From contig OX327702.1 in assembly GCA_946807835.1 (NCBI GenBank), positions 2,542,001 to 2,606,000 of the forward strand: a stretch of DNA of 64,000 nucleotides, given 5' to 3'. The stretch comes from Ailanthus altissimus. Taxonomy: Eukaryota; Streptophyta; Magnoliopsida; Sapindales; Simaroubaceae. Position 1 is the stretch's first letter. The number at the start of each line of letters is the position of its first letter. This document shows, piece by piece, positions 1-62,504 of this stretch. The notes under the pieces were generated by a model. It saw only the letters and a program-made list of their open reading frames with translations, did no database searches and was not told the DNA's origin. Made by a program: the position numbers and the translations under genes.

Positions 1-408
1 CCATACTAATCTCTTACATAAAATTCTTAACTCCTTTAAAAATTTTAATCCCTTCAACATATACTCATACGTCATAATATCATTCACTACCTTGATATCA
101 TTCAAAAAAAATGTAGTATTTCTACGCAACTAAGTTGTCATTCAAATCAGAATATTGAAAGCATTATCTTAAACGATCAAAAATCAACTTCAATAAAAAG
201 ACCTTTAGTTCAACTGATTCTTAAACTATAGATCTTAACATTATATCTCTTACTTTAACTCTTAAAAAAATAGTCCACCTTATTGGACATCATTTTCTCA
301 TTGAGATTGACATGTCTGCTTTTTCTAATATGCTCGATTTCAAATAGAAAAGATTCTACTAGCACAATCACTGCGATGGCAAATATGATTCTTTTAACTA
401 TTCCTTTA
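1..408. other. Non-coding left edge, probably interior of retroelement copy A
   Basis: No convincing gene is visible here: the sequence is AT-rich with stops in all frames. By position it should be the interior of the LOG-carrying LTR element whose 5' LTR is at 3417-6121 on the minus strand. The matching part is deleted in copy B, so it cannot be confirmed by comparison. No LTR end or polypurine tract is recognised. Confidence 0.4.
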
Positions 409-474
409 ACGTCATCCACGTAAAAGGAAAGGACAAAACGATTATTGATTTTCTTTCATAAAACTCTATAAATA
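409..474 (+). promoter_or_regulatory. Putative core promoter of the 397-codon gene
   Basis: A TATAAATA box lies at 467-474, about 63 bases before the ATG at 537. Two ACGT cores (within ACGTCATCCACGT, 409-421), the bZIP/TGA-type target, lie about 50 bases upstream of it. The expected leader is short and has no upstream ATG before 537. This is inferred from motif and spacing. In copy B the region is deleted. Confidence 0.5.
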
Positions 475-536
475 GCCTAAACCTCATAATCACTTTTCTA
501 GCAATAAATAAAACCAACCTTCTTACCATCTTCATA

Positions 537-1730
537 ATGAATCCCATTATCATAACTCCTCCTGTTCCTTTTTCTCCACCACAATTTTCAGACCTAATCA
601 AAACCAGAACACTCCATTCCCGTGCCAAAGAATTCATCAGACACTACGCCATCTTAGCAGTCCAAGAACACGGCCTCACAGTTCTTGGTGGCCCTTTGTT
701 CAACTTAGAATACCCTTTCTTTCACCTGCACTCTTTTTTCCCATTTTCCCAATGGTCCAAACCTGTCATTTACTTGTTATGGTACCTGTTGGATCTGTAT
801 ACAATCGCCATGGAATTCCCATTACTTAGAACCCTCCAAAAATTAGAAAAATGTGATGAAGATCATCCAGCCCTGATTTTTCTCCAATGGTTTTACCCAA
901 AGACATGGTGGATAACTAAATTTCAATACATGATTGCAAACAACACAAATGCTGCAGTCCCCAGACAACATCTTTGGTCAGTCTTACTTCTCCAACGGAA
1001 GGGTATGATTATTTCAGATCACGAGATTCATTATTACCCCACTGTTAAGGATTACTTCACATTTACCCTTTCACTAAAGGGATCAATTAAGCTCTGGCCT
1101 GAAGAAGTAATTCAGCAAAAGAGAGAACTTGAAAGAATTCTTGCTCAGGAAAATCAAATAATTCCTCCGTCTGTTTGGATCTCCCCAGAAGATGCTGCAC
1201 CTTGGGAACAAGTTGAAGCTGACTTTACAGAAGACCTGAATTTTGCCAATATACTCAAATTCCAACAAAGACAAAAATATCATCTTTCACATCTCAGAAA
1301 TACAGATTACTCTACTCATCATCACCATATCCCAAACATGACTTATTATGCCAGATACAGACAAGCAATGGATAACCTTCACCAATGGCCTCAGCTAACT
1401 GTCCCGACAGAACCTACCCAATCTCAGCCAGTTGTCCCGACAGAACCTACTCAATCTCAGCCAGTTGTCCCGACAAAACTTGACCAACACCAACCCAATC
1501 TTGACTTATCCCTCTTTCAAGACTCCCAACCTTATCCAACCGACACCCAAATCCAAGAGGAAGCCAGCACATCCCTCATCCAGACCAGCTCACCTGGAGA
1601 AGATCAAGATATGGTAGACCCACATTCCACTCCGCCAGAGCCCTCATTCAATGTATGGGAACAACAACTCCATAAGTTCCTCTCTCACGGATACGACACA
1701 GATGAAAGCGACCAAGGAGACTCATTTTGA
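537..1730 (+). CDS. Intact 397-aa protein of unknown function carried by retroelement A
   Basis: One uninterrupted reading frame begins at the first ATG after a TATA box. I do not recognise the family. The N-terminal two thirds is rich in Trp, Tyr, Phe and Leu (aromatic stretches near residues 60-150) with no clear signal peptide. A His run (HHHH) lies near residue 261. Two and a third copies of an 11-residue Pro/Thr/Gln repeat (33-bp units at 1401, 1434, 1467) follow, then a Ser/Pro/Gln-rich tail ending in acidic residues (DTDESDQGDSF). It has no zinc knuckle, protease, RT or integrase motif. A decayed homologue lies at 50499-51584 in copy B, also just upstream of LOG. The open frame amid decayed DNA suggests youth or selection. 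It could be a captured host gene or a virus-derived gene; nothing seen decides between them. Confidence 0.7.
   Translation: MNPIIITPPVPFSPPQFSDLIKTRTLHSRAKEFIRHYAILAVQEHGLTVLGGPLFNLEYPFFHLHSFFPFSQWSKPVIYLLWYLLDLYTIAMEFPLLRTLQKLEKCDEDHPALIFLQWFYPKTWWITKFQYMIANNTNAAVPRQHLWSVLLLQRKGMIISDHEIHYYPTVKDYFTFTLSLKGSIKLWPEEVIQQKRELERILAQENQIIPPSVWISPEDAAPWEQVEADFTEDLNFANILKFQQRQKYHLSHLRNTDYSTHHHHIPNMTYYARYRQAMDNLHQWPQLTVPTEPTQSQPVVPTEPTQSQPVVPTKLDQHQPNLDLSLFQDSQPYPTDTQIQEEASTSLIQTSSPGEDQDMVDPHSTPPEPSFNVWEQQLHKFLSHGYDTDESDQGDSF
1401..1483 (+). repeat. 33-bp in-frame tandem repeat inside the 397-aa gene
   Basis: Two full units (1401-1433, 1434-1466) and a partial third encode VPTEPTQSQPV-type repeats. 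Copy B has one unit fewer, so the number varies between copies, as expected for slippage in a disordered segment. Confidence 0.85.
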
Positions 1731-1903
1731 CCTACATTGCTGTTTCTATTTTTCACAGAAACTAGATCTGTGCCGCTTTATTACATCAAAGAGAGACTGA
1801 CTACTGTTTTATCTTTATGTCAAGTGTCATTTATCTTTCTTCATGTCCATTTTTAATCTATCAGCCAAAGATCAATGTTAAGATCATAAAAATCCTTGAA
1901 ATT

Positions 1904-1909
1904 AATAAA
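1904..1909 (+). terminator. AATAAA poly(A) signal after the 397-aa gene
   Basis: An AATAAA lies about 175 bases past the stop codon and is kept in copy B near 52092. It is a plausible 3'-end signal; this is inference from sequence only. Confidence 0.45.
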
Positions 1910-2254
1910 GTTAATTTGGCCTCATGTCCAAAGTCCAATTGTTAGCTCAAAAAGTCTTCAAGTCATTGATGTATTGTCGACCATTAGTGCCAAAACGGCA
2001 AAGTCCCTAAATCCATAAAATAGGCATTTATTGACTTTTCTTAATCATCTTACCTAACTCATCACGCTTCCGACACAATTTTATTACACTTACATATCAA
2101 CAAATATTTATTCAAAATTTTGCGGCCTATTGTCCCTTATAGAATAATAAAGTAAAACTCATTCTTTTCTATTTACCTCACAAGAATTGAGAAAAACGTA
2201 TATACTTGAACATACTTACACATATGCTCCACAACTATTATCAATTTGTTTCTC

Positions 2255-2262
2255 TATAAATA
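2255..2262 (+). promoter_or_regulatory. TATA box of the LOG-like gene, copy A
   Basis: TATAAATA lies 68 bases before the ATG at 2323. It is conserved at 52437-52444 in copy B at nearly the same distance, so the gene travelled with its own core promoter. Confidence 0.6.
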
Positions 2263-2322
2263 CATTGTTTTTGCATCCTTATACAAACTCAAAAATATTC
2301 AGAGATTAGGGTGAGCGTAACA

Positions 2323-2976
2323 ATGGAGGAAACCTCAGCTCGTCGATTTACAAAAATTTGTGTCTTTTGTGGATCCAACCCTGGAAATACTGAAGAGTTT
2401 ACAAAAGTTGCAGAAAATCTTGGTAAGGTATTAGCTGAGCGAAATATACATTTAGTATATGGAGGAGGTAACCGAGGGTTAATGGGGTCTGTGGCAAAAG
2501 CTGCACACAATAAAGGTAGTCGAGTTTTGGGTATCATTCCAAAACCTCTAACTATTGAAAATGTTGTAGGAAAAACAATTGGGGATGAGTTACAAGTCTC
2601 ATCTATGCACGAGCGAATGGCTCAAATGCTTAGGCATGCGAATGCTTTCATAGCTCTACCAGGAGGTTTCGGGACCTTGGAGGAAATTTTTCAAATTGTC
2701 TCATGGGCACAATTACAAATCCACCAAAAAACCAATTGGTTTGTTAAATGTTAATGGTTTTTACGACGGGTTGATATCTTTTCTTGACTATGCAGCGGGA
2801 ACACAATTCATCCCACTTCTAGCACGACGGATTCTTATTTCAGCTCCAACTGTTGATCAACTGATTGATCAATTACAGTCTTTTATTCCTCTGTCTAATC
2901 CAACATTGCATCAGTTAGATTGGTCTACTCATGACAGTCAGAAGAAGCGCAAAATAGACTTAAATCTCACTCCGTA
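2323..2976 (+). pseudogene. LOG: LOG-type cytokinin riboside 5'-monophosphate phosphoribohydrolase, one frameshift
   Basis: LOG enzymes release active cytokinin free bases from cytokinin nucleotides in the cytosol and nucleus. The frame starts at ATG 2323 (an upstream in-frame GTG at 2311 is not a plausible plant start). It shows the N-terminal CVFCGSNPGN motif, the nucleotide-binding VYGGGNRGLMG, Arg98 in MHERMAQ, and the family signature PGGFGTLEE (residues 113-121). An A-run of six (2726-2731; five in copy B) shifts the frame near codon 134, ending it early at 2754. The rest continues in another frame to 2976 and would give the usual total of about 217 residues. The tail is KKRKIDLNLTP, a basic cluster plus a DLNxxP repression-type motif. 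Plant LOG genes normally have several introns; this one has none, suggesting a spliced-RNA origin. It could be functional if the sixth A is a sequencing error. Confidence 0.85.
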
Positions 2977-3023
2977 GCCTCTACTGTATTTTTGTTGCTG
3001 CTATTGTTGTTGTTTTCCTTTTC

Positions 3024-3029
3024 AATAAA
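3024..3029 (+). terminator. AATAAA poly(A) signal after LOG, copy A
   Basis: AATAAA lies 47 bases after the LOG stop codon within a T-rich stretch. It is kept in copy B at 53211-53216. Confidence 0.5.
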
Positions 3030-3396
3030 AGTTGTTTCAATTGATGTCTTCAATACTCTACTTCTCTATATTTTGTCATTGAGAAAATTATCTCAATTTA
3101 CTCTATGACATGCAAATTATCATTATAAGATATTCAACATCACTCTTACTAAGCATATGAGTCATAACTTTAAAAAAAAAATCTAAATAGTAACATTAAG
3201 ATCCACAAGGTACCATTATCCACAACAACAACAATCTTAGCAGCTCTTGGATAATGTGTCATCTTCACAAAATCATACAAAATTTAAGGAATATGTCAAA
3301 CTTTTACACAACAAAGCTACAAATACAATCCTAAGGATTTGGCATCTGCTCGGTTCCCTTGACTCGACACTTAAAAGTCTACAGAATCATATCTTA

Positions 3397-3408
3397 GCTC
3401 TGATACCA
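3397..3408 (-). other. Primer-binding site of retroelement A
   Basis: The plus strand reads GCTCTGATACCA, the complement of the initiator tRNA-Met primer site TGGTATCAGAGC. It sits 8 bases inside the LTR end at 3417, which fixes the element on the minus strand. Confidence 0.8.
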
Positions 3409-3416
3409 ATAAAAGC

Positions 3417-6121
3417 TGTCACGCCCCAGACCCAACAGATCTGTCACACGACATCACTTACATTCATTCAATAATACTTAAACATTCATTTTAATTTCTT
3501 TCAGAATTATAGCAATTGAATTATGACTGGGACAATTACTAAACCGGAGATACGCAGAGTTTTCTCAGAGATTAACACTCTACTACGTCACCAGTAGCAA
3601 CTTTGTTACCGGAAGCCCAGAATATATTCATTGCAAATTCTTACTTAAAATCAATCCATTACTACACTTGGTGAAACTTAAACTAAATCCAACCACACAC
3701 AATAAAATAATACATAAGTATTTATTCAACATGGACAAATCAAATATTTTATCCCACGTGTCCCCAAATGAAACACTTAGCAACCTAACAACTTAGGGAA
3801 CCCAAGGAACAGCAGAAGCCTTGCCAAATCCGCTAAGCACACATGTACCTTATTTACCTGAAATCACCATAAACTATAATGAGTATAAAACTCAGTAAGC
3901 ATACTAGTTTTTCATATGTCAAATACAAATACATATATGTACACAATGCATATGTATGATATGTTGTTATCAATCAAAATTATAATCTTATCAAATCACA
4001 TATCATGTAAGCGCTTACACATTCTTTCAAAACACATAATAGGAATACCATTACTCGACTACTACTTAGTAGGACTTACATATCACATATCACATAATGA
4101 GCCAAATGTCACTCGTAGGTGACATACCGTATGAGAGGAATAGTACAAGTGAGGTCTTGAATAACACATATATAATGCTCATGCCCGAAGGTAAAAGCCA
4201 AACCCTCACCCTGATCATCGGTGAGTCCTCTCACATGCACCAATACGCCACCACACGAATGTGATAACTCACTATTCCTTTAGGTACCAATAGGATCCTC
4301 CCTACATACGGAACACATAACATATACCTATCCCGAAGGAAAGGCCACACATAAAGGCTCCACAAATCACATAAGATGCCTACTAAGTCAACAGTGAGTT
4401 CAAGCATCCTCAAAACACAAAATCTTTCTCATTGACATATTGCACCTCAAAGCTTTCTTTGTCAAACACATTTCATTTTGAAAGCTCGCTTTCAAAAACA
4501 CATGTATGTCCATGTTCAATGTCAATGCTCACATTCATAAACACATGTCTTTCACATTTCATATCAAATACACTTTGGCATAACATAAACATATTTTTAA
4601 GCACATTTACAAAATCATACATAGACAATTACTATGCTTATAGTGATTTCAGTAAAAGTCTAGTATACTTACCTCTTAACACTTTCAGCTACAAGGCTTA
4701 AATCTCTTTAACCTATCAATGGAGATTAATCCTTTCATAAGCCTCACAATTCACACAAAATACTTTAAATATCTTACAAAATTATACACAATGCATTTAT
4801 CACATCAAATTGGTCTAAATATTTGGTTTCTCAAAACCTGTCATTCTGACCACTTACACTTAACAAAATTTCTAATACATCAAATGATGTCCAATTACTC
4901 CGAAATCAGAATATATCATTCTTGACTCATATATACTTCTTATATATGAATATTATATCAAAATTCCTACACAATCCATTCCATACACACCATCGAATCC
5001 AAACTACAAACCTGACAGGATCAAGATACTTACTGAATAGTATTCAATCCCCCAATTTTATAAAATCATATACTAACTCAAAAATTATAAAACTACCACA
5101 TAATTACTCTTAACACATATCTCAGTCCATGATAAATATTTCTCTTCCAAATCACTGCCAAAAATATTTTAAAACTATTTTATTCCATAGCTTTAAAAAC
5201 CTGTTAATCAAACACTGCAATGAGCTGATACACTTTAGAAATTCATAACACTTCAACCACATTGATCTAAATTCTCAATTCCGAGTATATCATATTAGAC
5301 ATATAAAATTATCATATTCCATAAATTCGTAATTTTTTAAGATCATTCAGTAGGACAAACATTGTTCGTCACTGTATTATACTGTTCACATAGGAAATTT
5401 CCATAATTTCAGGGTCATTTTGGTAAATTCACTATAAATTCAATTTCCAGAATTTTCAATCGATTCAAAGTCTCAGATGATCCTTAACATGTCTAATTTC
5501 ATATACTCAAAATTCAAAACCAGAATCGAATCACAACAATTTATAAAATTCCTAGATCAAGAGGCTATCCAGCAGAAATTCCATAATTCATCATGATTTA
5601 TCAAACTATCTTATAGATCATCATCAATTCTCACAACATCAAACGAAATACACATCAAATCCTTAATTATACATATTTCCAGAAATCAAAACTTAAAGAA
5701 ATTAACTTAATTAACACCAATAAATTGATAATTAGTTGTGATATACCTCTAAAGATCCAAAATTCTCATTTTCTTCTTCTTCTTCTCTTTCTCTCTCCTT
5801 TATTTCTCTCTTCTCTCTCTAAAAATGGGTAGCTCGACTAAAATGAGAGAATTAGGGTTTTAAAAGTGTATTTTTATACTAAGTGGCTAATTTTTGGTAT
5901 TTACAAATTTACCCCCAAAACTTTCAAAGTATTACAATTTGGTCCCTAAAATAAATTTAAAGTCTTGCAATTAAACCCAATGCTAATAGTATCACCTTAA
6001 CCTATACAGACACTACTAATAATAATATATAAATCAAGTATCACCAACATACAAATAAAATACGTATATTTATACATTTATAAATACTTATTCTTACCAG
6101 TCGTGGATACTGGTTACTACA
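3417..6121 (-). repeat. 5' LTR of LOG-carrying retroelement A (2705 bp)
   Basis: On the minus strand the LTR begins TGTAGTAACCAG at 6121 and ends GGGGCGTGACA at 3417, with the usual TG...CA ends. It aligns along its length with the LTR at 53606-56422 with many scattered differences. Short open frames inside it have no family resemblance and shift between copies, so I read it as non-coding. Confidence 0.8.
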
Positions 6122-6640
6122 CATCTCATACATTATTGAGTGCTTATCACAAGGACCGAGATTGACTATCATTAAATGCCCGAGGTATTGAAATAATGGT
6201 TACCACTTTTAACAAATGATTGAGATAAAAATCTAGTTACTCAATATAGTAGTGTTAGTTTGCAATGACAATGCAAGTGGCTAGTGCCAAGGATCAAAAT
6301 CCTATAGTGGGGGAATTATTATTTTATGAAGTCATAGATAAGATTTGAAACAGTGACAATTATATGTTCAAGGTTGCAATTTTCAAGTGTAATTGGGTTG
6401 AGAGCTGAGGCAATGTCAAAGATGATGATCTTAGGTTTACAATTATCGAATTGAAATATTTAGGTCATAAGTCAGACTCTTTTATATTGACTTCTTAAGC
6501 CAAGTAAGTATTCTATTTTGTTGACCAAGAAGATAAGGGGTTAGCAATAATTTGCTCCTTACTTGCAAGAGGAAGTATGGTAGAATCAATAATTGAAGAA
6601 GTTGAGTTGATAATGTAATGGGACATCCATTAATAATAAA
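6122..6640 (+). pseudogene. CACTA (En/Spm) transposase fragment, DUF4216-type region
   Basis: Between 6268 and 6560 one frame, broken by four stop codons, reads as the conserved DUF4216-type region next to TNP2-type CACTA transposases. Landmarks are MQVASAKDQNP, then FKVAIFKCNWVES, then a GHKSDSFILTS segment followed by VFYFVDQEDKG. The catalytic transposase domain and the element ends are not seen here and would lie left of retroelement A, which appears to have inserted into this transposon. It is inactive. Confidence 0.75.
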
Positions 6641-41295: not shown

Positions 41296-41299
41296 TGAC

Positions 41300-44207: not shown

Positions 44208-44213
44208 AGTTTT

Positions 44214-44231: not shown

Positions 44232-44353
44232 TAATTATCTACTTTTTTTTACCAATATTAATACCAATCTTTCTAGTTTTTACTTCAGAATTTTTTTATT
44301 TTATTTTATTTTATTTTCATTAATTTAGTTTTACTTTCTTTCTTACGAGGTAC

Positions 44354-46933: not shown

Positions 46934-47045
46934 AAGAAAAGAAAGCCCCGTCAAGCCGATGACGTTAAATCAAGCGCTACTTGGGAGGCAACCCAAGGAA
47001 AGTATTATTATTATTATTATTATTATCACTTTTTTTTTTTCAGCA

Positions 47046-47083
<38 letters not shown>

Positions 47084-48714
47084 CAGAAATACAGCGCTGT
47101 AGCGACAGGTTTCAGCGCAGCAGCGATGCACAATTCAAGTTTCCACCGCCCCCGCGGTACAAGCAACATCGCGCCAGCGCAAATTCCAGTAACTGTGCAG
47201 AACTCAGCCTTCAGCGCTGCAGCGATGGAATATTACCGCGGCAGCGCCAGAACATCGCCCCAGCGACGGAGACTCAGCGCAACAGCGAAAATTGACTAGG
47301 GAAGTCTCTTAATTTCACTTCTTTATTTTTTGACATTGGGGACAATGTCTAAATTAAGTTTGGGGGTGGGAAACACTTTCTTGTGTTCATTTTTCTGCAT
47401 GATTTGGGGGGTCATTCTTGTGGGTTAAAACTTAATTTTTTTTTTAGTTACTTAGTTTTTTTTTTAGTTAATTCATTTTTATTAGGTTTTGATAAGATGA
47501 TCATTAGTCTATGATAAGAAAAAGAATACATGGTTGAATTTATTTTTACACATCCATAGGGAATGATAGATACTTGAGACAATTTTAATTATTTAAGTTT
47601 AGGAACAAATTCGACCTTATTCATAATCACCAATATTTTGAACACTTTATAAGCATGAATAGTTATAACTATTACTTAGAGATACTTATGTTTTAGAGAG
47701 TACACCACAGTCTCGAAGACCGATACTCTAGAACTTGTCTTTAGTTACTATTTGAGGCGAAATTCTAGGAAACACATGAATAGGGAAATGACATTAGGCC
47801 ATCTTTGGACCGATTGAGCCTTTCTAGCCTACCTTTTATTGTATATTTATCCCTAGTACCCTATTTTGAGCCTAATTACCCATTCTTTGGTTTAACCACA
47901 TTACAAGCCCAAGACTTAAAGTTTACTTATCCAAAATTTACCCGTAACACCATAAACTTTGCATTTACTTAGAAATACTCTTGAAAAGGAAAAAGTTGTG
48001 GTGATATGAGAAAAATAAGTTTGGGTGGTATTTATCAATCTAAGTTTGGGGGTATATAAAATTGAAAAAAAAAGAAGAAAAGAAAGAAAAAGAAGAAATT
48101 CTTTGAAAAAAAAAAAGATTGAAAAGAAGGATGGGAACACAATAAGTTTGGGGGAAGAGATAATACAAGGAAAAGAAGATCAAGAGGTTTCTAGGTAAAA
48201 TCTAAGTGTTCATGGTGTGAATTGAACTTCATATATTTATCCTTTTATCCCACCTTGACCCTAGCCTTACGTTACAAGCTAAGTAAAGTCCTAAATAGAT
48301 CCCTAGATATGTGATTTTCTACATTAGTGGAGAGTGGTAATAAAGACAAGCTTATGGAAGTGTCATTATACAAATTAAATGCCGAGACACCATCTTTTCT
48401 GTACAAACTAAAGTATAAAGTAAATCAAAGTATGGTTTTTGCTATTTGCTTGCTGCTTGCACACACACACATGGTGATTATTTATGAGGAAGAATGAGGG
48501 ACTAAATGAAGATAATTAGAATTGTTAATAGCTATTTGTCTACCTTAAGGATTTGTATCATTTCGTTAGCCTTTGAGACAATGATTTTGATCATCTTACT
48601 AGTATTAGTATATTTTGTTTTGTTTTGTTAAATAAGTCAAGTATAATCCTTTGTTTCTCTCTTAGTTTTATTTTATTGCTTGAGGACAAGCAAGTATTTA
48701 AGTTTGGGGGAATT

Positions 48715-50204
48715 TGATAAGGGCAAATTTGTCATATATTTTCTCATGTTTTTATTATTGATATTTTATTATTTTATGAGAATAAATGGCTATTAATGTG
48801 CATTATTATTATTTATAGGGACTTGAACGAAATTTAAAGAAAGAACGCAAAAGGAGCGAAAACAGGGACTAAAATGCAAAGCTTTCAAAGTATGAGTCCA
48901 GCGCCCCCGCGCCACAAGTATTTTAGCCCCAGCGTTGGAATAGTGATCGAAATTAGAAAAACGACCTGTTTAAGTCGCGTCTGGAGCTCCAGCGATGAAG
49001 AGACACCGCGCCAGCGACGTTCCAGCGCCCCAGCGCTATAAACATACCGCGCCAGCGGTGAAGCCGTTTTCATGCAGCGCCCCAGCGCCAAGATCCCACC
49101 GCGCCAGCGGTGCAAGCTTTTTCACGCAGCGCCCCAGCGACAGATGCATAGCGCGCCAGCGGTAGTGCGAGTCCTAGTCCGACGAGAATTGAGATTTTCA
49201 AGCTCATATCAATCCCTATATAAAGCCACTCGTTCCCAGCCTTCAGGGGAGAATCCAAGACGACCCAAGAGCACCAAGAATACAGAGCAAGAGTCTTGGA
49301 GAGCAATAGGAGCTTAATTGAAGCAACTTTAGAGAGAGATACAAGACGTTCTTCGGCATCAAGAGTTTCTAGGCAGCGCAATTAAGAGCAATTCGACGTC
49401 TATATCGGTTTGCTAATAATTGTATCATGATTTATAATTATTTCTACTGCTGTTCTCTTGTAGCCATGAGCTAAACTTGTTTTCTAGGGTTAATATTTGA
49501 ACTCAATATGTGCGCTTAAATTGCCATATCCTTTTAGTATTTAATAAACTTAGTCATTTATTATTTAAATTACTTGTGTTTAATGCTTCAATATATCTGG
49601 CCAATATATGGTGAATGAATTGGTAATATTATTGATAAACTCGGAAGAGGAATCATAATATTTAGACCTAGGTAATTTGATGCATGATTGTAGAGTAACA
49701 TTCAATGTTGCATATGCAAGTTTCAACTTAGGATAGGAATATACCTAATTGGCATGTATGATCAATAAGACCTAATCTTAATGAATCTTAATTTATTACA
49801 AGTACCATAGGAATATAGGTATTTGGTAAACTAAGATATACTTGCATGACCTTGGAAGAGGCTTGTGAATACATTAGTGTCTTGATCAATAATAAAGACT
49901 AAGTAAGTTAAATATTAGAGGATTAATCATTAGAAACATATTGAGGGATAATATTAATCCTAGGTTTTCTCTACGTTGCTATATCTTTAAATCTCATTGC
50001 ATTGTGTTTTTACTTTTATATTTCTTACATTCATTCTTAGATTTTTATTTTTCTGAATAATTATTAGGAAGATATAATTTTAGTAATTGGTTAAAAAGAA
50101 AGAATTATCCCTGTGGGTTCGACATCCGACTAATTAGTCTCTTTATTACTTGCATACGATAGTGTATACTTGCACTTAATTTATGATATAGAAATATCGC
50201 ATCA
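48715..50204 (+). repeat. LTR 3 of the Gag-protease array
   Basis: 1490 bp, ending ATCGCATCA. One base differs from LTRs 1 and 2: A at 50190 where they have C (38196, 44193). It is followed by target duplication GTTGC at 50205-50209. Confidence 0.9.
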
Positions 50205-50403
50205 GTTGCATAAACAAAATCATTTACACTTGTTTGAAAAACATTCAATGGTTAAAGAGTTTAACTAAAGAAAAGGTATTTCAAAGAGTTTAAACACTTG
50301 GTTATTGAATTTTAAAGATTAAAGCTACCATTCTAGCATTCTATGCACACTTGAGTTGGAATTTAGAATGGCCAATGGGAGCGCTTTAAGGTGAGACCTT
50401 CGG
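50205..50403 (+). repeat. Continuation of the interrupted copia LTR
   Basis: It begins with the GTTGC duplication and continues the plus-orientation LTR left at 36720. It matches the complement of the family near 33480-33600 (TTTAAACACTTGG...AGAATGGCCAATGGG). It ends at the TTCGG duplication (50399-50403) of element B. Confidence 0.6.
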
Positions 50404-50498
50404 TGTCATGCCACAGACCCAAAAGATCCGACACAGACATCACTTACATTCATTTAATAATGTGCACTCATAAATAATATTACATAAAATTTAAAACT
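50404..50498 (-). repeat. Truncated 3' LTR of element B
   Basis: It matches 53606-53700 (TGTCATGCC...CCGACACAGACATCACTTACATTC) and then switches abruptly to the unknown gene around 50493-50500, with a short shared AAACT at the joint. This is the scar of a deletion of about 3 kb or more. Confidence 0.8.
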
Positions 50499-51584
50499 CC
50501 ATTTTCGTGCCAAAAAATTTATCAGACATTACGCCATCTGAACAGTCTAAGAACATGGCCTTATAGTTCTTGGTGACACTTTGTTCAACTTGGAATACCC
50601 TTTCTTTCACCTGTACCTTTTTTTTTTTCCATTTTTTCAATGGTCAAAACCTGTCATTTACTTGTTATGGTACTTGTTGGATATGTATACAATTGCCATG
50701 GAATTCCCATTACTTAGAACTCTCCAAGAATTAGAAAAATATGATAAAGATCATCAAGCCCTGATTTTTCTCTAATGGTTTTAACCAAAGACATGGTGGA
50801 TAACTAAATTTCAATATATGATTGGAAAAAACATAAATGTTGCAGTCTCCAGACAATATTTTTTGTCTGTCTTACTTCTCTAACGAAATGGTATGATTAT
50901 TTCAGATCATGAAATCCATTATTACCCACTGTCAAGGATTAGTTCACATTTTCCCCTTCACTAAAAGGATTAATTAAGCTCTAGCCTAAAGAAGTAATCC
51001 AACAAAAGAGAGAACTTGAAAGAATTTTTGCTCAGGAAAATCAGATAATTTCTCCGTCTGTTTGGATCTCCCCAGAAGATGCTGCACCTTGGGAACATGT
51101 TAAAGATGACTTTGCAGAAGAACTGAATTTTTCCAATTTACACAAATCCTGACAAAGACAAAAACATCATCTTTCACATCACAGAAATACAGATTACTCC
51201 ACCCACCATCACCATACCCCAAACATGACTTATTATGCCAGATACAGACAAGAAATTGATAACCTTCACCAATGGCCTCAGCCAACTGTCCCGACATAAC
51301 CTACCCAATCTCAACCAGCTGTCCTGATAGAACCTGACCAACACCAACCCAATCTTGACTTATCCCTCTTTCAAGACTCCTAACCTTATCCAACCGACAC
51401 CCAAATCTAAGAGGAAGCCAACACATTCCTCATCCAGACTAGCTCACCTGCAGAAGATCAAGATATGGTAGACCCACCTTCCATTCAGCCAGAGCCGTCA
51501 TTCAATGTATGGGAACAACAACTCCATAAGTTCATCTCTCACGGATACGACACAGATGAAAGTGACCAAGAAGACTCATTTTGA
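50499..51584 (+). pseudogene. Decayed homologue of the 397-aa gene, copy B
   Basis: It is collinear with 612-1730. It lacks the start and has several stops and frameshifts (for example TAA within the CTAATGG near 50772, and losses near 50880 and 51150). The best preserved stretch is 50581-50775. It has one fewer 33-bp repeat than copy A, and the acidic tail region is kept near 51540-51584. It is not functional. Confidence 0.85.
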
Positions 51585-51972
51585 CCCACATTGCTCTTTA
51601 TATTTTTCACAGAAACCAGATTCGTGCCGCACTATCACATCAAAGAGAGACTGGCTACTCTAGACACCACCGCTACTTTCCAAATCTAAATGAATTTTCT
51701 CTAAACTTGGACAACTTTCCACAGCCTAGTGTGCCAGGTGACCACATGCAGATTGATGAAACATCTCACCAACCCAACTTGACTTTATTTTTATCCTAAG
51801 ATTCTCAACCTTATCCAACTGATAGCGAAGTCCAAAGAGAAGCAACTGCATTAATGAGAACCAGCTCAATGGATACCACATCACCAGACACGAGAAGTTT
51901 CTGGGCTCAATTCAATGACTTTACCCAAGGATTCGATAGTGATAATTCAAGCTACTCATCATTTAGCAGTTA
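51585..51972 (+). pseudogene. Second, divergent C-terminal piece of a 397-aa-type gene
   Basis: After the first gene's stop, another partly open stretch contains HQRETGYSRHHRYFPN, then DSQPYPTD and a tail with FWAQFNDFTQGFDSDNSS. This parallels the C-terminus of the 397-aa protein (same DSQPYPTD, W..Q...F, G.D.D). Copy A keeps only its first part (1750-1800) and has lost about 330 bases. It implies that the element once carried two tandem relatives of this gene. Confidence 0.65.
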
Positions 51973-52436
51973 ATCATGATAAGAGTGCTTCTGCTTTATC
52001 TTTATGTCAAGTGTGCTTTATTTTCTTCATGTCTGCTTTTAATCTATCGGCCAAAAAAATCTATGTTAAGACCACAAAAATCCTTGTAATTAATAAAGTT
52101 AATTTGGCCTCAAGTCCAGATGTTAGCCCAAAAGTCTTCAAGTCATAAATGCATTATCGGCCATTAGTGCTAAGACGGCAAGGTCCCTAAGTTTATCAAA
52201 GGGGTCTTTATTTGACTTTTCTTAATCATCTTACCTAACTCATCACGCTTCCGACACAAATTTATCACACTTACATATCAACAATTATTTATTCAAAATT
52301 TTACGACCTATTGTCCCTTATAAATGATAAAATAAAACCTATTATTTCTTTTTGCTTCATAAGAACCGAGAAAAATATATACTTGAACATGCTTACACAT
52401 ATGCTCCACAACTGTTATCAATTTTATTTTATTTCC

Positions 52437-52444
52437 TATAAATA
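52437..52444 (+). promoter_or_regulatory. TATA box of LOG, copy B
   Basis: TATAAATA is conserved in position relative to the ATG at 52504. Confidence 0.5.
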
Positions 52445-52503
52445 TATTATTTTTGCATCCTTATACAAACTTGAAACATTCAAATATTAGGGTGAGCGTA
52501 ACA

Positions 52504-53157
52504 ATGGAGGAAACCTCAGCTCGTCAATTCACAAAAATTTGTCTCTTTTGTGGATCCAACCCTAGAAATACTGTAGAGTTTGTAAAAGCTGCAGAAAATC
52601 TTGGTAAGGTATTAGCTGAGCGAAATATACATTTAGTATATGGAGGAAGTAACCGTGGGTTAATGGGGGTTTGTGGCAAAAGCTGCATACAATAAAGGTA
52701 GTCGAGTTTTAGGTATCATTCCAAAACCTCTGGCTATTGAAAATATTGTAGGAAAAATAGTTGGGGATGAGTTACAAGTCTCATCTATGCACGAGCAAAT
52801 GGCTCAAATGCTTAGGCATACAGATACCTTCATAGCTATACCAAGAAGTTTTGGGACTTTGGAGAAAATTTTTCAAATTGCCTCAAGACCACAATTATAA
52901 ATTCACCAAAAACCCATTCATTTGTTAAATGTTAATGGTTTTTATAACGAATTGTTATCTTTTCTTGACTATGAAGTGGGAAGACAATTCATCCCACTTC
53001 TAGCACGACGGATTCTTATTTCTACTCCAACTGTTGATCAACTGATTGATCAATTGCAATTTTTTATTCCTCTATCTAATCCAACATTGTATCAGTTAGA
53101 TTGGTCTATTCATAATAGTGAGAAGAAACGCAAAATAGACTTAAATCTTACTCCGTA
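52504..53157 (+). pseudogene. LOG: LOG-type cytokinin-activating enzyme, copy B, inactive
   Basis: It is collinear with 2323-2976. Its lesions differ from copy A: one extra G in the run at 52665-52669 shifts the frame after GLMG, and a TAA at 52898-52900 ends the middle block. Here the A-run has five bases (52908-52912), the in-frame length. Key residues are also lost: Arg98 of MHERMAQ is Gln, and the PGGxGT signature reads PRSFGT. The C-terminal KKRKIDLNLTP is unchanged. It is intronless. It is clearly non-functional, and its damage is independent of copy A. Confidence 0.9.
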
Positions 53158-53210
53158 GCCTCTACTGTATTTTTTTGTTGCTATTATTGTTGTTGTTGTT
53201 TTTCTTTTTC

Positions 53211-53216
53211 AATAAA
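53211..53216 (+). terminator. AATAAA after LOG, copy B
   Basis: Same sequence context as 3024-3029. Confidence 0.45.
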
Positions 53217-53585
53217 AGTTGTTTCAATTGATGTCTTCAATACTTTACTTTTCTATATTTTGACATTGAGAAAATTATCTCAATTTGCTCTATGACATAT
53301 AAATTATCATTATAAGATATTCCACATCATTCTTGCTAAGCATACTAGTCACAACTAAAAATAAAAATCATAGATGGTAACATTAAGAACTATAAAAATA
53401 CCATTATCTACAATATCAACAATCTTAGCAGCTCTTGAATAATGTGTCATCTTCACAAAATCATACAAAAATTTAAGCAAGATGTCAAACATTTACACAA
53501 CAAAGCTACAAATACAATCCTAAGGATTTGGCATCTGCTTGGTTCCCTTGACTTGACACTTAAAAGTCTACAAAATCATATCTTA

Positions 53586-53597
53586 GCTCTGATACCA
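53586..53597 (-). other. Primer-binding site of retroelement B
   Basis: The minus strand reads TGGTATCAGAGC, the tRNA-Met primer site, eight bases inside the LTR end at 53606. Confidence 0.8.
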
Positions 53598-53605
53598 TTA
53601 AAAGT

Positions 53606-56422
53606 TGTCACGCCTCAGACACAAAAGATCCGACACACGACATCACTTACATTCATTCAATAATGTGCACTCATAAATTATATTACATAAAATTTTAAAC
53701 TTTAATTCAACATAGGAATCCTTAGCAAGTTGCTAGTAAGTTCAACACTAAAATCAACCCATAACCTAACATATAAATATAAACTTCTATTGACAATATT
53801 TAAACCTTCATTTCAATTTATTTCAGAATTATAACAATTGAATTATGACTGGGACAATTAGTAAATCGGAGATACGCAGAGTTTTCTCAAAGATTAACAC
53901 TTAACTACGTCACCAATAACAACTTTGTTACCGGAAGCCCAGAATATATTCATTGCAAATTCTTAATTAAAATCAACCAATAACCACACTTAGTGAAACT
54001 TAAACTAAATCCAACCACACACAATAAAATAATATATAAGTATTTATTCAATAGGGACAAATTAAATATCTTATCCCACGTGTCCCCAAATGAAACACTC
54101 AGCAACCTAACAACTTAGGGAACCCAAAGAACAGCAAAAGCCTTGCCAAATCCGCTAAGCACACATGTACCTTATTTACCTAAAATCACCATAAACTATA
54201 ATGAGTATAAAACTCAGTAACTATACTAGTTTTTCATATATCAAATACAAATACATATATGTACACAATGCATATGTATGATATGCTGTGATAAATCAAA
54301 ATCATAATCTTATCAAATCACATGTCATGTAAGCGCTTACACATTCTTTCAAAATATATAATAGGAATACCATCATTCAACTACTACTTAGTAGGACTTA
54401 CATATCACATATCACATAATGAGCCAAATGTCACTCGTAAGTGACATACCGTATGAGAGGAATAGTACAAGTGAGGTTTTTAAATTACACATATATAATG
54501 CTCATGCCCGAAGGTAAAAGCCAAACCCTCACCCTGATCATCGGTGAGTCCTTTCACATGCACCAATACGCCACCACACAAATGTGATGACTCACTCTTC
54601 CTTTAGGTACCGATAGGATCCTTCTTACATACGGAACGCATAACATATACCAATCCCAAAGGAAATGCCACACATAAAGGCTCCACAAATCACATAAAAT
54701 GCCTACTAAGTTAACAGTGAGTTCAAACATCCTCAAAACACAAAATGTTTCTCATAGACATATTTACTTCAAAAGCTCTCTTTGTTAAACACATTTCATT
54801 TTGAAAACTCACTTTCAAAAACATATATATGTCATATATGGCCATGCTCACATTTATAAACACATGTCTTCATATTTCATATCAAAATATACTTTGACAT
54901 AACATAAACATATTCCTAACCACATTTACAAAAGCATACATAACAATTATTATGTTTATTGTGATTTCAGTAAAAAGTCTAGTATACTTACCTCTTAGCA
55001 CTTTTAGCTACAAGACTTAAATCTCCTTAACTTATCAATGGAGATTAATCCTTTGAGCCTCAACATTCATACAAAATACTTTAAATAGCTTACAAAAGTA
55101 CACATATTTCTTGATTAATTACTTGGTCTAATTACTTGGTTTCTCAAAATCTGTCATTCTGACCACTTACAATTAACAAAATTTTCTTATACATCAAATG
55201 ATGTCCAATGACTCCAAAATCAGAATATATCATTCTTGACTCATATTTCCTTCTTATATATGAATATTATATCATAATTCCTACACAATTCATTCCATAA
55301 ACATCATCGAATCCAAACTACTAACCTGACAGGATTAAAATATTTACTAAACAGTATTCAATCTCCCAATTTTATAAAATCATATACTAACTTAAAAATT
55401 ATAAAACTACCATAGAATTACTCTTAACACATATATCAATTCATGATAAATATGTCACTTCAAAATCACTGCCAAAAGTATTTTAAAACTATTTTATTCT
55501 ATAGCTTTAAAAATCTGTTAATCAAATACTGCAATGAGCTGACACTCTTTAGAAAATCATAACAATTTAACCACATTGATCTAAATTTTTAATTCTGAGT
55601 AGATCATATTAGACATATAAAATTATCATGTTCCATAAATTCGTAATTTTTAAAGATCATTCAGCAGATCAAAAATTATTTGTCTTTATATCATACTGTT
55701 AACACAGGAAATTTCTAAACTTTCAAGGTCATTTTGATAAATTCACTAAAAATTCAATTGCTGGAATTTTCAATCGATTCAAAGTCTCAAATGATTCTAA
55801 ACATTTCTAATTTCATATACTCAAAATTTAATACCAGAATCAAATCACAACAATTTATAAAATTCCTGGATCAAGAGACTATCAAGTAAAAATTCTACAA
55901 TTCATTATGATTTATCAAACTATCTACATAGATCATCATCAATTCTCACAATATCTTACAAAATACACATCAAATCCTCAATTGTACATATTTCCAAAAA
56001 TCACAACTTGAAGAAATTAACTAATTTAACACCAAGAAACTAAAAATAAGGTTATAATATACCTCTTAAAGCTTAAATTCTAACTTTCTTCTTCTTATTC
56101 TCTTTCTCTCCTCTTTCTTTCTCTATTTTCTCACTCTAAAAGAGGTAGCTCAACCAAAATGAGTGAATTAGGATTTCAAATATTTTTTTTATACTAAGAG
56201 GTTAATTTTTAGTATTTATGAATTAGCCTCCAAAACTTTCAAAGTATTATAAATTTAGTCTCAAAAATAAATCTAAAGTCTTGCAAATAAACCCAATACT
56301 AATAGTATGTCCTTAACCTATACAAACACTATTAATAACAATACATAAATCAAGTATCACCCACATACAAATAAAATATATATATATATATATATAAATA
56401 CATATTCTTACTGGTTATTACA
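53606..56422 (-). repeat. 5' LTR of LOG-carrying retroelement B (2817 bp)
   Basis: On the minus strand it begins TGTAATAACC at 56422 and ends GAGGCGTGACA at 53606. It aligns with 3417-6121, with an additional stretch of about 130 bases near 53690-53820 that is absent from copy A. A TA microsatellite lies at about 56380-56396. It is followed by target duplication TTCGG. Confidence 0.85.
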
Positions 56423-56639
56423 TTCGGAATTTGATTTCACACTGAATCGCTTCAAAGGTATGTTTTAATTTTAATGTACCAAGATTGAATTTTAAGTATG
56501 TATTTATTGAATAAAAAATCAAATTTTTATTCCGCTGCTCATTTTGTGTGTTTGGCATACAAATTTTAGAATTCAATTAATACTATTCACATGCAAGCAT
56601 CTAGTGAAATAGCATGCTTTCAATTAGGACAAAAAACAT
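56423..56639 (+). repeat. Probable 3' remainder of the twice-interrupted copia LTR
   Basis: After TTCGG the sequence runs on plausibly from 50398 (the GTGAGACCTTCGG context) toward an LTR end (TTCCGCTGC near 56530). Similarity to the sister LTRs is weak here, and the end of the LTR is not fixed. Confidence 0.35.
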
Positions 56640-57839: not shown

Positions 57840-58313
57840 TGTTAAGGTTGGTGCTACATTAAGATTGAAGAAAGAAATGGTTGGTAGCACACCAACATTG
57901 AAGACACCATGTTTGAAGAAATAAATAGTTGGTGGTTTAAATCATTAAATTAAATGGGTGACATTTTTGAATGCTGAAGAAGATGTGTTCAATTAGTACA
58001 CTACCACTTCCTCCTATAAATAGAAGAGCTTTATTAGTTCAAAATCATCCCAAAACATTCAAAGCAATTACTTTAGTGTTCTTTTCTTTGTTTCTCTTAT
58101 TTATAAGAGAGAGTTGAATTGTTCTCTCCTTATAATTTGAGAGATATTTTAATCTCATTTTCATAGTGAAAATCCTCTATACTTGCCCTGTGGTTTTTTT
58201 CCCTCAATTTGTTTGAGAGTTTTCTACGTAAACTTCGTGTCATTCATTTTTATTCAATTTCTCATTTCTATTTTTAATTAAGATATTGCTTCAACCTACA
58301 ATTCTCCATAACA
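57840..58313 (+). repeat. 5' LTR of the Tork-like element (474 bp)
   Basis: TGTTAAGG...CCATAACA with a TATAAATA box at 58015-58022. It is followed two bases later by the primer site TGGTATCAGAGT. Confidence 0.9.
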
Positions 58314-58383
58314 AGTGGTATCAGAGTCTCATGGCTTTCAGGTGAAGGTATATTGTTCACGGATACTATTTATAGACATGTAA

Positions 58384-58447
58384 CTGTTCACGTATATAGT
58401 ACTATTCATATATACGGTACTGTTTACGTATATGATACTATTCATAG
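58384..58447 (+). repeat. 18-bp tandem repeats in the Tork-like leader
   Basis: Degenerate 18-base units of the form ACTGTTCACGTATATAGT / ACTATTCATATATACGGT are repeated three to four times between primer site and gag ATG. Confidence 0.65.
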
Positions 58448-58497
58448 TGAAATAGTGGGAGCCAGTTCGAGAGAGAAGTAGATCGTAGTTAATCAAT

Positions 58498-61400
58498 ATG
58501 ACGACAAAGTACAAGATAGAGAAGTTTAATGGGAATAATTTCTCGATGTGAAAGATGAGAATGTTGGCAATATTAAGAAAGAACCATTGTTTAGCAGCAA
58601 TTGGTGACAGACTAGCAAGTATGACTGATGAAAAATGGGAAGAGATAGATGGAGATGTTATTGCCAACTTGCATCTGGGATTAGCAGATGAAGTTCTATC
58701 AAGCATAGTAGAGAAAAAGACAACGAAGGAGATATAGGATACTCTAACAACATTGTACGAGGTAAAGTCTCTTCACAACAAGATCTTCTTGAAAAAAAAA
58801 CTCTATACCTTATGGATGTCAGAATCTATGACGGTAACTAATCATATCAACACTCTCAATACCTTATTTTCTCAACTTTCTACTTTGGGTTACAATATTA
58901 GACAAAATAAACGTGCTAAGATTCTACTCCAAAGTCTTCTAGATTCATATGATCATCTAATCATCAGCTTAACTAATAACCTCCTAACAGACTATCTAGT
59001 ATTCAAAGGTGTTACAGCCTCTGTTCTTGAAGAAGAAAGTAGGTTTAAAAACAAGGAAGATAGAGCAACTAATTCGCAGCAAGCGGAGGCGTTACCCATG
59101 ACTAGAGGCAGATCAATGGAGCATGGCTTCAGTGGGAGTCACAGACATGGAAGATCAAAGTCAATGAGTAAGAAGAATATCAAGTGCTACAATTGTGGTA
59201 AGAGAGGGCATTTCAAAAGTGAGTGTCGATATAAGAAAGGTGTAGAAAAGACAACTGAGCCATCAAAATCTCAGGGTTGTGTTGCAAGTACTTCTGATGA
59301 TGGTAGCGTCCTATACAGCGAAGCAACAACTATTTTCAAGGATAGAAAGAAGCTCACTGATGTTTGGATAATGGATTCGGGAGCAATATGACATATGACC
59401 TCTCGTCGAGATTGGTTTCACAATTATAAACTCATCTCTGGAGGATCTGTGTATATGGGTGATGATCATGCCTTGGAGATTATTGGTATTAGCACCATCA
59501 AGTTGAAGATGTATGATGGAACGATTCGTACAATCTAAGAGGTACGGCATGTGAAAGACTTGAAGAAAAATCTATTGTCTCTAGGACAACTAGATGAGCT
59601 TGGATGCAAAACCCATATACAAAATGAGATCATGAAGATTGTCAGAGGCACACTCGTGGTAATGAAGACAGAAAAGGTAGCTGCTAACCTGTTCATGCTC
59701 TTGGGGGAAAACATATTCAGAGGCAGAAGCATCTGTTGCATCAGCCAATTCTGCAGAAGAAATGACGATGTTATGGCACCAAAGACTTGGTCACACATAT
59801 CAGAACGAGGTTTGAAAATTCTCTGATCAGAAGTTACTTCCTGGACTTAAAAATATTTTTTTTTACCCTTTTATGAGCATTGTGTTATAAGTAAGCAGCA
59901 TAGATTAAAGTTTAGCACATTAATAGCTAAGAGTAATGACATCTTAGACTTAATTCATTCTGATGTTTGGCAAGCATCGGTCACATCCTTGGGAGGAGCA
60001 AAATATTTTGTATTATTCATTAATGATTTTTCCAAGAGATGTTGAGTTTATCCAATCAGAAGAAAGGCAGATGTGTTTCCTACATTCAAAGTCTTCAAAG
60101 CATGGGGTGGAACTTGAAACTGAGAAGAAGATCAAATGTTTAAGGACTGACAATGGAGGCGAATATACTGGCAAAGAATTTGATGCATTGTGCAAACAAG
60201 AAGGCATCAAAAGATAATTCACAACAGCATACACTCTCTAACAAAATGGAGTGGCAGAACGGATGAATAGAACTCTACTTGAAAGAACTAGAGCTATGTT
60301 AAAGACTGCGGATTTAGCCAAGTTATTCTGGGCAGAAGCAATTAATATTGCCTGTTATGTGATTAATCGGTCTCTATCAACAACGATTAATCTGAAGACA
60401 CCGATAGAGATATGGATTGGTAAGCCAGCTGATTATTCTAATTTACATACATTTGGAAGTCCTGTATATGTGATGTACAATACCCAAGAAGTCACAAAAC
60501 TTGATCCAAAATCTAGAAAATGTATATTCTTAGGGTATGCTGATGGAGTAAAGGGGTATCACCTGTGGGATCCTACTGCCCACAAGGTAGTTATCAGCAG
60601 AGATGTGATATTTGTGAAAGATAAGCTACAAAAGAAAGAAAATGATGGCACAACGAAGGACAAATCAGAAACTACCACAGTGTAAGTGGAGGAAGAGTCA
60701 AAAAATGAAAAAATTTCTGAAGTAGCACTAGAGCATGATGAACAAGAACCAGTTGAGTCAGAACAGCCACCTCTCAGACAATCAAATCGGGTGAGTTTAG
60801 TACCAGTTTGGCGTTCAGACTATCATATGGAGAGCAATATTACATACCATCTTTTAACAGAGGAATGAGAGCCATCAACTTTCCAAGAAGTAATGAACAG
60901 TTCGGATGCATCTCTATAGATGATAGCAATGTAAGAAGAAATTGAAGCTCTTTATAAGAATAGAACATGGGATCTTGTACCACTACCACATGGAAGAAAG
61001 GCCATTGGCAACAAATAGGTCTACAAGATCAATAGAAATAACGATGATCAAGTGGAGCAGTATCGTGCAAGATTGGTAGTAAAAAGATATGCTCAGAAAG
61101 AAGGTATTGATTTCAATAAGATCTTTTCATCAGTTATTAGACTCAATAACATTCGAATAGTCCTTGCTATGTATGAAACATTTGATTTACATCTAGAATA
61201 GTTAGATGTAAAAATAGTTTTTCTTCATAGTGACCTTGAAGAAGAAATTTATATGCTCCAACCAAAAGGTTTTACAAAAACAGGAAAGGAGAACTTGGTT
61301 TGCAGGTTGAACAAATCTTTATATGGTCTCAAACAAACGCCGAGATGTTGGTATAAGTAATTTGATTCTTTCATATTGAGTCTTGAATACAACAAACTTA

Positions 61401-62427
61401 GGACAGACCCTTGTGCATATTTCAAGAGGTTTAGTGATAATGAGTTCATTATCTTATTGTTGTATGTTGATGACATGTTGGTAGCAGGCTCCAACAAAGA
61501 TCAAGTAACAGAGTTAAAGGCTCAAATGACTAGGGAATTTGACATGAAGGACTTGGGACCAGCAAACAAGATTCTAAGGATGCAAATTCATCGAGACAGA
61601 AGTAATAGGAAGATTTGGCTTTCATAAAAGAACTATTTGAAAAAGATCTTGCAATGCTTCAATATGTAGGATTATAAGCCAATTTCTACCCACTTCCTAT
61701 TAATTTCAAGTTATCCTCAAGTATGTGTCCTAGCAATGAAGCAGAGAGGAAGGAGATGTCTCGAGTACCATATGCATCAGCAGTGAAAAGTTTAATATTT
61801 GCCATGATTTGTGTAAGACCGGACATTACACAAGCAGTGGGAGTGGTTAATAGATTCAAAAGCAATCCTGGTAAAGAGCATTGGAGTACTATTAAGAGGA
61901 TCTTGAGATATATTAAGGGTACCTCAAATGCTGCATTATGTTATGGAGGATCAGAAATCACTATCAGAGGATATGTTGATTCAGATTTTGCAGGTGATCT
62001 TGATAAAAGAAAATCTACCACAAGCTATGTGTTTACAATTGCAGGAGAAGCTATTAGCTGGGTTTCTAAACTTCAGACTGTTGTGGCTCTATCAACGATA
62101 AAGGCTGAGTATATGACAGCTACACAAGCTTGTAAAGAAGCAATTTGGATAAAAAGACTATTGGAGGAGCTCAGGCACAATCAAAAGAAGATTCTTTTGT
62201 ATTATGATAGTCAGAGTGCCTTGCATATTGCACGAAATTCGATTTTTCATTCAAGAACAAAGCACATTGGAGTTCAGTATCACTTTGTTCGTGAAGTGGT
62301 AGAAAGTGGTAGCGTAGACATGAAGAAGATTCACACTAAAGAGAACCTAGCAGATGCATTAACCAAATTGATCAACACTGATAAGTTCATATGGTATAGA
62401 TCCACATATAGCCTGGCAGAAACGTAA
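58498..62427 (+). pseudogene. Ty1-copia Gag-Pol polyprotein, broken by many stop codons
   Basis: Order along the frame: Gag from ATG 58498 (KFNGNNFSM, then LYTLWMSESMTV), zinc knuckle CYNCGKRGHFKSEC near 59187, protease around WIMDSGA (59367 on), integrase with the GVAERMNRTLLERTRAML block (60248 on), RT with YVDD motif at about 61465, RNase H with the LSTIKAEYMTATQACKEA block (62089 on) and end at 62427. Stops include TGA 58549, TAG 58735, TGA 59389, TAA 59536, TAA 60215, TAA near 60239 and several in RT. Nearly all are one transition away from the expected Trp, Gln or Arg codon. There are also a few frameshifts (about 59785 in the integrase zinc-binding region). Confidence 0.9.
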
Positions 62428-62491
62428 GTAGCATAGAGATGACAAGTATAGGTAGAAGAATATGAAGACGTGATTATTTTAATCGAGTCTT

Positions 62492-62504
62492 CAAGTGGGA
62501 GAAA
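62492..62504 (+). other. Polypurine tract of the Tork-like element
   Basis: CAAGTGGGAGAAA lies immediately before the 3' LTR. Confidence 0.75.

Follow-up and report, generated by a model that had tools for sequence, protein, structure and literature searches.

For most of the additional open reading frames (ORFs) in plant long terminal repeat (LTR) retrotransposons, neither the origin nor the function is known. The abstract of a 2011 study by Steinbauerova et al. is said to mention LOGL4-like ORFs in two Athila-like elements. According to the consulted parts of a later study, LOG (YgdH) is found in Ty3/gypsy elements of Citrus sinensis, C. clementina and, in unfiltered data, also P. trichocarpa (PMC9289625). 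The presence of LOG in gypsy elements is already published, and one of the families described below, F2, adds to that group. Here, we analyze a stretch of 64,000 nucleotides from the 939-Mb genome of Ailanthus altissimus (assembly GCA_946807835.1, contig OX327702.1, positions 2,542,001 to 2,606,000), hereafter referred to as the window, which contains two copies, A and B, of an LTR retrotransposon family that we call F1. The best explanation of our observations, which we consider likely, is that F1 is a non-autonomous LTR retrotransposon composed from three sources, with a LOG gene that is under selection and predicted to be expressed. In the anatomy of F1 and the origins of its parts we place very high confidence.

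Copies A and B are both LTR elements flanked by target site duplications (TSDs), and they belong to the same family, F1. Their features, including the primer binding sites (PBSs), are as follows, in window coordinates:

1..6121, minus strand: in-window part of copy A of F1; the whole element extends from C20:2538900 to window position 6121, TSD CATCT
286..517, plus strand: what remains of the C-terminal end of a pararetroviral RNase H, in antisense relative to the element; limits approximate, transferred from copy C5
464-474: TATA-like box 5′ of the 397-aa ORF, copy A
537..1730, plus strand: intact 397-aa ORF, florendovirus-type ORF2, copy A (ORF list, homology to L050)
2252..3100, plus strand: segment most likely derived from an Athila-type element, copy A, with the TATA box (2252-2262), LOG, and an Athila 3′ motif that has decayed; the right boundary is approximate
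2323..2977, plus strand: LOG coding region, copy A; a one-base frameshift leaves an ORF at 2323-2754 (143 aa)
3397..3408, minus strand: PBS TGGTATCAGAGC (tRNA-iMet), copy A
3417..6121, minus strand: 5′ LTR of copy A, in element orientation
6122..6126, no strand: TSD CATCT, right side of copy A
50399..50403, no strand: TSD TTCGG, left side of copy B
50404..50498, minus strand: 3′ LTR of copy B, outer 95 bp only, the rest deleted (92.7% over 96 columns)
50493..51584, plus strand: 397-aa ORF of copy B, decayed and lacking its start
52504..53158, plus strand: LOG of copy B, decayed, with 90.4% identity to an intact LOG of F1
53586..53597, minus strand: PBS TGGTATCAGAGC (tRNA-iMet, complement on the plus strand), copy B, adjoining the right LTR
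53606..56422, minus strand: full 5′ LTR of copy B
56423..56427, no strand: TSD TTCGG, right side of copy B

The left LTR of copy A lies outside the window (L052:501-3190) and is 99.3% identical to the right one, with CATCT flanking both sides. Unlike in copy A, LOG is intact at 217 aa in other F1 copies. A first-pass annotation, made from the letters of the window, had described copy B as an LTR retrotransposon that carries LOG and a partner gene as cargo. The TTCGG at both ends, next to the outer TG...CA at 50404 and 56422, and the tRNA-Met primer site were seen again. Because the complement of the PBS stands beside the right LTR, the element lies on the minus strand and both genes are antisense to it, as had been stated. 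The LTRs of copy B were said to match; they do so at their outer ends, but the left LTR is only a remnant, and the deletion behind it also took the start of the 397-aa ORF. Moreover, copy B is a real element but an imperfect example of a carrier, as both of its genes are broken and intact copies are found elsewhere. The reported absence of gag and pol held for both window copies, since the ORF list gave no such ORF between the LTRs (the internal region was not searched with profiles).

Elsewhere in the genome, complete F1 copies have 2.7-kb LTR pairs that are identical at 100% (C3), 100% (C21), and 99.8% (C12), flanked by the TSDs CTAAT, TACTT, and CCTAG, respectively. The copy on C5 is a tandem of two F1 elements, with a 9.3-kb repeated unit at 99.9% and outer LTRs at 99.7% identity, and the locus on C31 is rearranged by additional repeats. 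The internal region measures 3.7-3.8 kb, and its long ORFs are LOG and the 397-aa ORF or its pieces, both antisense; no gag-pol was found in four further F1 copies, in which stretches of at least 45 codons were read without a profile search of the internal region. F1 thus has the LTR pair, the 5-bp TSD, the PBS, and the polypurine tract (PPT; AAGGAGGGGAGAAT) of a large retrotransposon derivative (LARD). According to the consulted parts of PMC6317226, a tRNA-Met PBS occurs in most chromoviruses and in copia elements, not in non-chromovirus gypsy elements. The PBS of F1 fits a chromovirus but does not separate chromovirus from copia. The F1 shell is without pol, and we take it to be of the Tekay/Del lineage, with GGACGAAATTC as the presumed hallmark of that assignment.

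The genome-wide profile search for LOG scored the best 150 of 4943 candidates, all of them over the cut-off and none with a stop. In the search for the 397-aa ORF, 104 places of 2636 candidates were scored, including copy A, at 98-100% identity, and the ORF was stop-free in 94 of them. Both counts are lower bounds from best-scoring copies, in which the share of broken copies is not gauged; LOG was intact in 10 of the 12 F1 copies picked by the 397-aa ORF rather than by LOG. A recent spread of many stop-free copies is established. The first-pass proposal that a retrotransposon lineage had mobilised LOG with a partner gene and spread it is borne out by these stop-free copies throughout the genome, and the opposing possibility of two local copies only does not survive the 150 LOG rows and the 104 places of the 397-aa ORF.

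The LOG family is characterized by the motif PGGxGTxxE, and PGGFGTLEE is present in all aligned LOG copies apart from L037, which has LGGFGTLEE. With matches to 2a33 (E 5e-43) and PF03641 (91 bits), the LOG of the elements is a predicted cytokinin riboside monophosphate phosphoribohydrolase. The same gene is carried by two further families, F2 and F3. Copies of F2 (C9, C27, C22, and C4) have LTRs of approximately 1.44 kb where these are complete (C9 and C4), and the TSDs are CTAAG (C4) and TAGTG (C9, read by eye). They contain gag, reverse transcriptase (RT), RNase H, and integrase in this order and the PBS TGGCGCCGTTGCCGGGGA, and by this gene order and PBS they match Athila. We take this PBS to correspond to tRNA-Asp, as is presumably typical of Athila. 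Judging from the gene content, F2 is probably autonomous. Pol is followed by a 182-aa ORF and LOG, each of them encoded in sense orientation. The four F3 loci (L045-L048) are approximately 70% alike to F2, and the order pol, 182-aa ORF, LOG recurs in L045, L046, and L048.

The 182-aa ORF scored 31.2 bits against Viral_NABP (PF05515), which passes the cut-off of 23, and 18.3 bits against Carla_C4 (PF01623), which is below the cut-off of 20.9. It had no match in NCBIfam, its best PDB match (E 0.67) was not meaningful, and a scan of viral contigs with it gave no relative. In the genome, the best 150 of 1967 candidates for Viral_NABP were scored, at up to 39.1 bits; the controls for this search (0 hits in 14 genomes) were all prokaryotes and carry little information. 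Six F2 copies of the ORF align without gaps over 548-549 of 549 bases, and the frame is kept in five; the sixth has a change in the first position of its start codon. The nucleic-acid-binding proteins (NABPs) of carlaviruses suppress silencing. Presence of an NABP match also exposes the limits of a simple sorting of the 150 best LOG rows, which by hand count cover profile positions 1-131 in 63 cases and 1-130 in 87. The 12 fetched LOG loci were sorted into F1 and F2 in line with this split, but it is rough, as one 1-131 row (C10:6383478) has an NABP match 0.7 kb upstream and looks Athila-type.

The window also contains a tandem Athila-like element of its own (36721-50207), in which three LTRs of approximately 1494 bp and two internal regions repeat at a spacing of 5997 with 99.87-100% identity, and a gag-protease ORF of 859 aa occurs twice. 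Arrays of the form LTR-internal-LTR-internal-LTR were likewise seen in F1 (C5:4492104/4498654; by hand count, the 104 rows include seven pairs that lie 6.5-6.7 kb apart). These F1 arrays resemble that of the Athila-like element and suggest LTR recombination or concatemer integration.

The 397-aa ORF had no match in Pfam, NCBIfam, or PDB, a scan of viral contigs gave no relative, and an AlphaFold prediction from the single sequence had a mean pLDDT of 37.6. However, the peptide ahead of it in F1 resembles the C-terminal part of an RNase H from pararetroviruses. The genome was searched for viral movement proteins (best 150 of 397 candidates), and three 3-kb pieces at the expected polymerase end were fetched. 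Endogenous pararetroviruses abound in this genome, with at least 150 movement-protein matches, two of which sit 8.3 kb apart on C3. One of the three pieces, L050 (C26:5343300-5346300), is an endogenous pararetrovirus piece with RNase H (PF17919, 66 bits), and a relative of the 397-aa ORF directly follows this domain (33% over 349 columns, E 1e-45; best of 20 shuffles, 0.069). The ORF2 frame of L050 is itself interrupted by stops, and no such relative was present in the other two pieces, L049 and L051. The RNase H end of L050 also matches the stretch before the 397-aa ORF in copy C5 (66% over 238 columns, E 2e-21), and the RNase H-tail peptide is found in copy C21 (59% over 29 aa). According to the consulted parts of PMC4241990, florendovirus ORF2 comes after a polyprotein ending in RNase H and is a protein of 45-58 kDa whose function is unknown. 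From this description and the relative behind the L050 RNase H, we call the 397-aa ORF a florendovirus-type ORF2, an assignment made against a single pararetroviral piece in this genome rather than against a named florendovirus record.

The 397-aa ORF and LOG are therefore no host gene pair, and the partner that had been presented as a gene of unknown role is instead a viral ORF2 preceded by a viral RNase H tail. Both genes had been credited with a TATA box of their own; this can be upheld safely only for LOG, whose CTCTATAAATACA box is present in F1, F2, and F3, as the TATA-like box of the 397-aa ORF, at 464-474, sits within a stretch that is homologous to viral coding sequence where RNase H and ORF2 meet. 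In 12 copies, 4 of 14 changes in the 397-aa ORF on internal branches were nonsynonymous (9.9 expected, P 0.0016), as were 21 of 48 on terminal branches (34.7 expected); this test is biased, since the score of that very ORF decided the choice of 11 of the 12 copies, and the LOG score that of the remaining one, C5.

For LOG, 16 F1 copies were compared, five taken by LOG score and 11 by the 397-aa ORF, with L043 left out because of a frameshift, and the null was obtained by re-dealing the observed changes over LOG by type. On internal branches, 8 of 22 changes were nonsynonymous (16.1 expected, P 0.0004), and on terminal branches 25 of 44, one of them a stop (32.8 expected, P 0.0086). A 12-copy subset gave 5 of 17 for internal branches (12.1 expected, P 0.0006). 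The pN/pS ratio was 0.25 in the 11 copies picked by the 397-aa ORF, compared with 200 neutral simulations that averaged 0.83 and did not fall below 0.34; these were star-like and too narrow in spread. Between families, the mean dN/dS of LOG was 0.32 for F1-F2 (105 pairs; L042, which has a stop, was excluded, and L001, which has one, was included) and 0.13-0.14 for F2-F3, where dS (1.7-1.8) is near saturation; for the NABP-like ORF, the single F2-F3 pair gave 0.23. Constraint on LOG at the protein level is established by these comparisons, and it is highly probable that it reflects purifying selection.

Several observations weigh against our account of F1 as a carrier of a selected LOG. The 397-aa ORF is broken in four of the five LOG-selected F1 loci (C3, C21, C31, and C12); because the LTRs of C3 and C21 are nevertheless 100% identical, the ORF is not required in cis. 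Among seven F2 copies, LOG has a ratio of 0.75, which indicates that recent copies mostly drift. All four F2 copies that were fetched have a gag-pol broken up into two or more ORFs, L047 of F3 retains only the LOG end, and none of the four F3 loci has both the NABP-like ORF and LOG intact. Furthermore, LOG has a pS of 0.031, double the 0.0145 of the neighboring noncoding spacer (11 of L033-L044), and with the spacer as the neutral standard the ratio for pN becomes approximately 0.5 instead of 0.25. Finally, our LOG tree was built without the host LOG genes of this plant, the search for which was flooded by F1, so that a host LOG might fall within the clade of element LOGs. With regard to a transduced host gene of the Bs1 type, LOG is intronless, and this flooded search recovered no host parent. 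The broken ORF2 and the ratio within F2, together with LTRs that are 99.7-100% identical in full copies, could be taken to mean that LOG and ORF2 are chance captures spread passively by the shell and that the intact frames reflect youth. We consider this unlikely in view of the constraint on the internal branches of LOG, the F2-F3 dN/dS of 0.13, and the occurrence of LOG with its TATA box in three families.

The spacer, being less divergent between copies than the synonymous sites of LOG, would also suit a conserved RNA product, such as antisense transcripts of the LOG region or host-matching siRNAs that protect the element or tune host LOG. The consulted parts of PMC7264820 describe antisense additional ORFs of other plant elements that are transcribed and for which an RNA role was proposed. 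However, the constraint lies at the amino-acid level, and LOG is in sense orientation in F2 and F3; an RNA product is quite improbable as the conserved entity.

LOG is intronless in both F1 and F2, and the homology of the two families comprises 848 bp of F1 (75-77% identical), which start at the LOG TATA box, include the gene, and end 123 bp downstream of its stop codon. This segment ends at its 3′ side with the stretch ATTGAGGACAATG, which precedes a G-rich tract in F2 and F3. The Athila-like element of the window has the same stretch with one change, TTGGGGACAATG, and the F1 LOG had no match in that element. The LOG phylogeny that the first-pass annotation had called for separates F1, F2, and F3 from two Arabidopsis LOGs with 100/100 support, and joins F1 and F2 to the exclusion of F3 at 91/94, under the 95/80 mark of the tool. 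Because the shared segment holds an Athila 3′ motif, and considering this tree, the source of the F1 LOG was most likely a gag-pol-bearing Athila-type element of the F2/F3 lineage, rather than LOG and its partner having been captured as a pair, as was initially supposed. Independent acquisition by F1 and F2 from one host gene would be compatible with a tree from which the host LOG genes of this plant are absent and with an F1+F2 fork at merely 91/94; because the common segment contains the Athila 3′ motif in addition to the promoter and LOG lacks introns in both families, we regard it as very improbable. Segmental duplication of a host LOG and its neighbor, suggested by two copies approximately 50 kb apart, is rejected as having practically no chance of being correct, because the TSDs CATCT and TTCGG indicate two separate insertions, each copy has its own LTRs, and copies occur on many contigs throughout the genome.

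The composite anatomy of F1 and the relatives of each part being established, the following course of events can be proposed. The shell, with its tRNA-iMet PBS and PPT, most likely came from a chromovirus of what we assume to be the Tekay/Del type and would provide the LTRs and replication signals; as it is without gag-pol, F1 would move in trans. A piece of an endogenous florendovirus, consisting of the RNase H tail and ORF2, would have been captured in antisense, which is made plausible by a proposal, in the consulted parts of PMC10377300, that banana streak virus integration involved recombination between a caulimovirid and a gypsy element. The LOG cassette (TATA box, 217-aa enzyme, AATAAA, and decayed Athila 3′ motif) would have come from an Athila element that belonged to the F2/F3 lineage. 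LOG may then be transcribed from its own TATA box and free active cytokinin from the nucleotide form, and the cytokinin could favor dividing, meristematic, or germline-forming cells, where new insertions are inherited. Such a benefit to the element is a tentative suggestion. The partner gene, NABP-like in Athila and ORF2 in F1, may serve a second step, for example in relation to host silencing or particle formation. More generally, it is conceivable, although we would not yet favor it, that retrotransposons carry working virus-like accessory cassettes of LOG and a virus-derived protein, which are kept by element-level selection, that LOG has passed between lineages, and that host cytokinin, and possibly RNA silencing, is manipulated for the elements' own inheritance.

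Two further features of the window are a Copia-type element (57840-62981) with LTRs of approximately 477 bp at 90% identity and pieces of gag and pol in separate short ORFs, and an inverted repeat (31085-31381) whose two 147-bp arms match perfectly and are separated by 3 bp.

In the titles and abstract beginnings of the open literature, with subscription papers mostly outside, we found no report of a carlavirus-type NABP or a florendovirus ORF2 in an LTR element, and none of LOG passing between element lineages, of an NABP-LOG pair, or of a composite such as F1. Here, two additional ORFs have likely origins, a florendovirus ORF2 and a carlavirus-type NABP, and a third encodes a hormone enzyme under measurable selection. 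With LOG in many young copies, the manipulation of host physiology by a retrotransposon becomes directly testable, and florendovirus ORF2, a protein of unknown function, gains a second context in which it is retained.

In the Citrus gypsy elements, as in F2 and F3, LOG is an additional ORF of a gag-pol-bearing element, according to the consulted parts of PMC9289625. In contrast, LOG is paired here with a Viral_NABP ORF in two families that are approximately 70% alike (the Citrus elements were not compared for NABP), and it has also passed, most likely, to a non-autonomous element of another lineage. The 182-aa ORF shares with the carlavirus-type nucleic-acid-binding protein a basic run followed by a Cys cluster, but its Cys spacing is C-x2-C-x4-C-x3-C and it is encoded in a retrotransposon. 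The 397-aa ORF, at an estimated 46 kDa, agrees with the 45-58 kDa of florendovirus ORF2 and occupies the same site directly after RNase H1 (PMC4241990, in part); however, it is carried by an LTR retrotransposon, and the rest of the virus is absent. Antisense genes in LTR elements are also known from Grande (gene23), Retand, and RIRE2, in Grande with a promoter of its own, but these elements have gag-pol and ORFs whose origin is given as unknown in the consulted parts of PMC7264820, whereas F1 has no gag-pol and the sources of both of its cargo genes are identified. The Phalaenopsis gypsy family with an ALKBH5-like demethylase likewise represents a host-type enzyme kept by a plant gypsy family; according to the consulted parts of PMC9289625, that enzyme acts as an RNA demethylase, whereas the enzyme of F1, F2, and F3 is of the hormone type.

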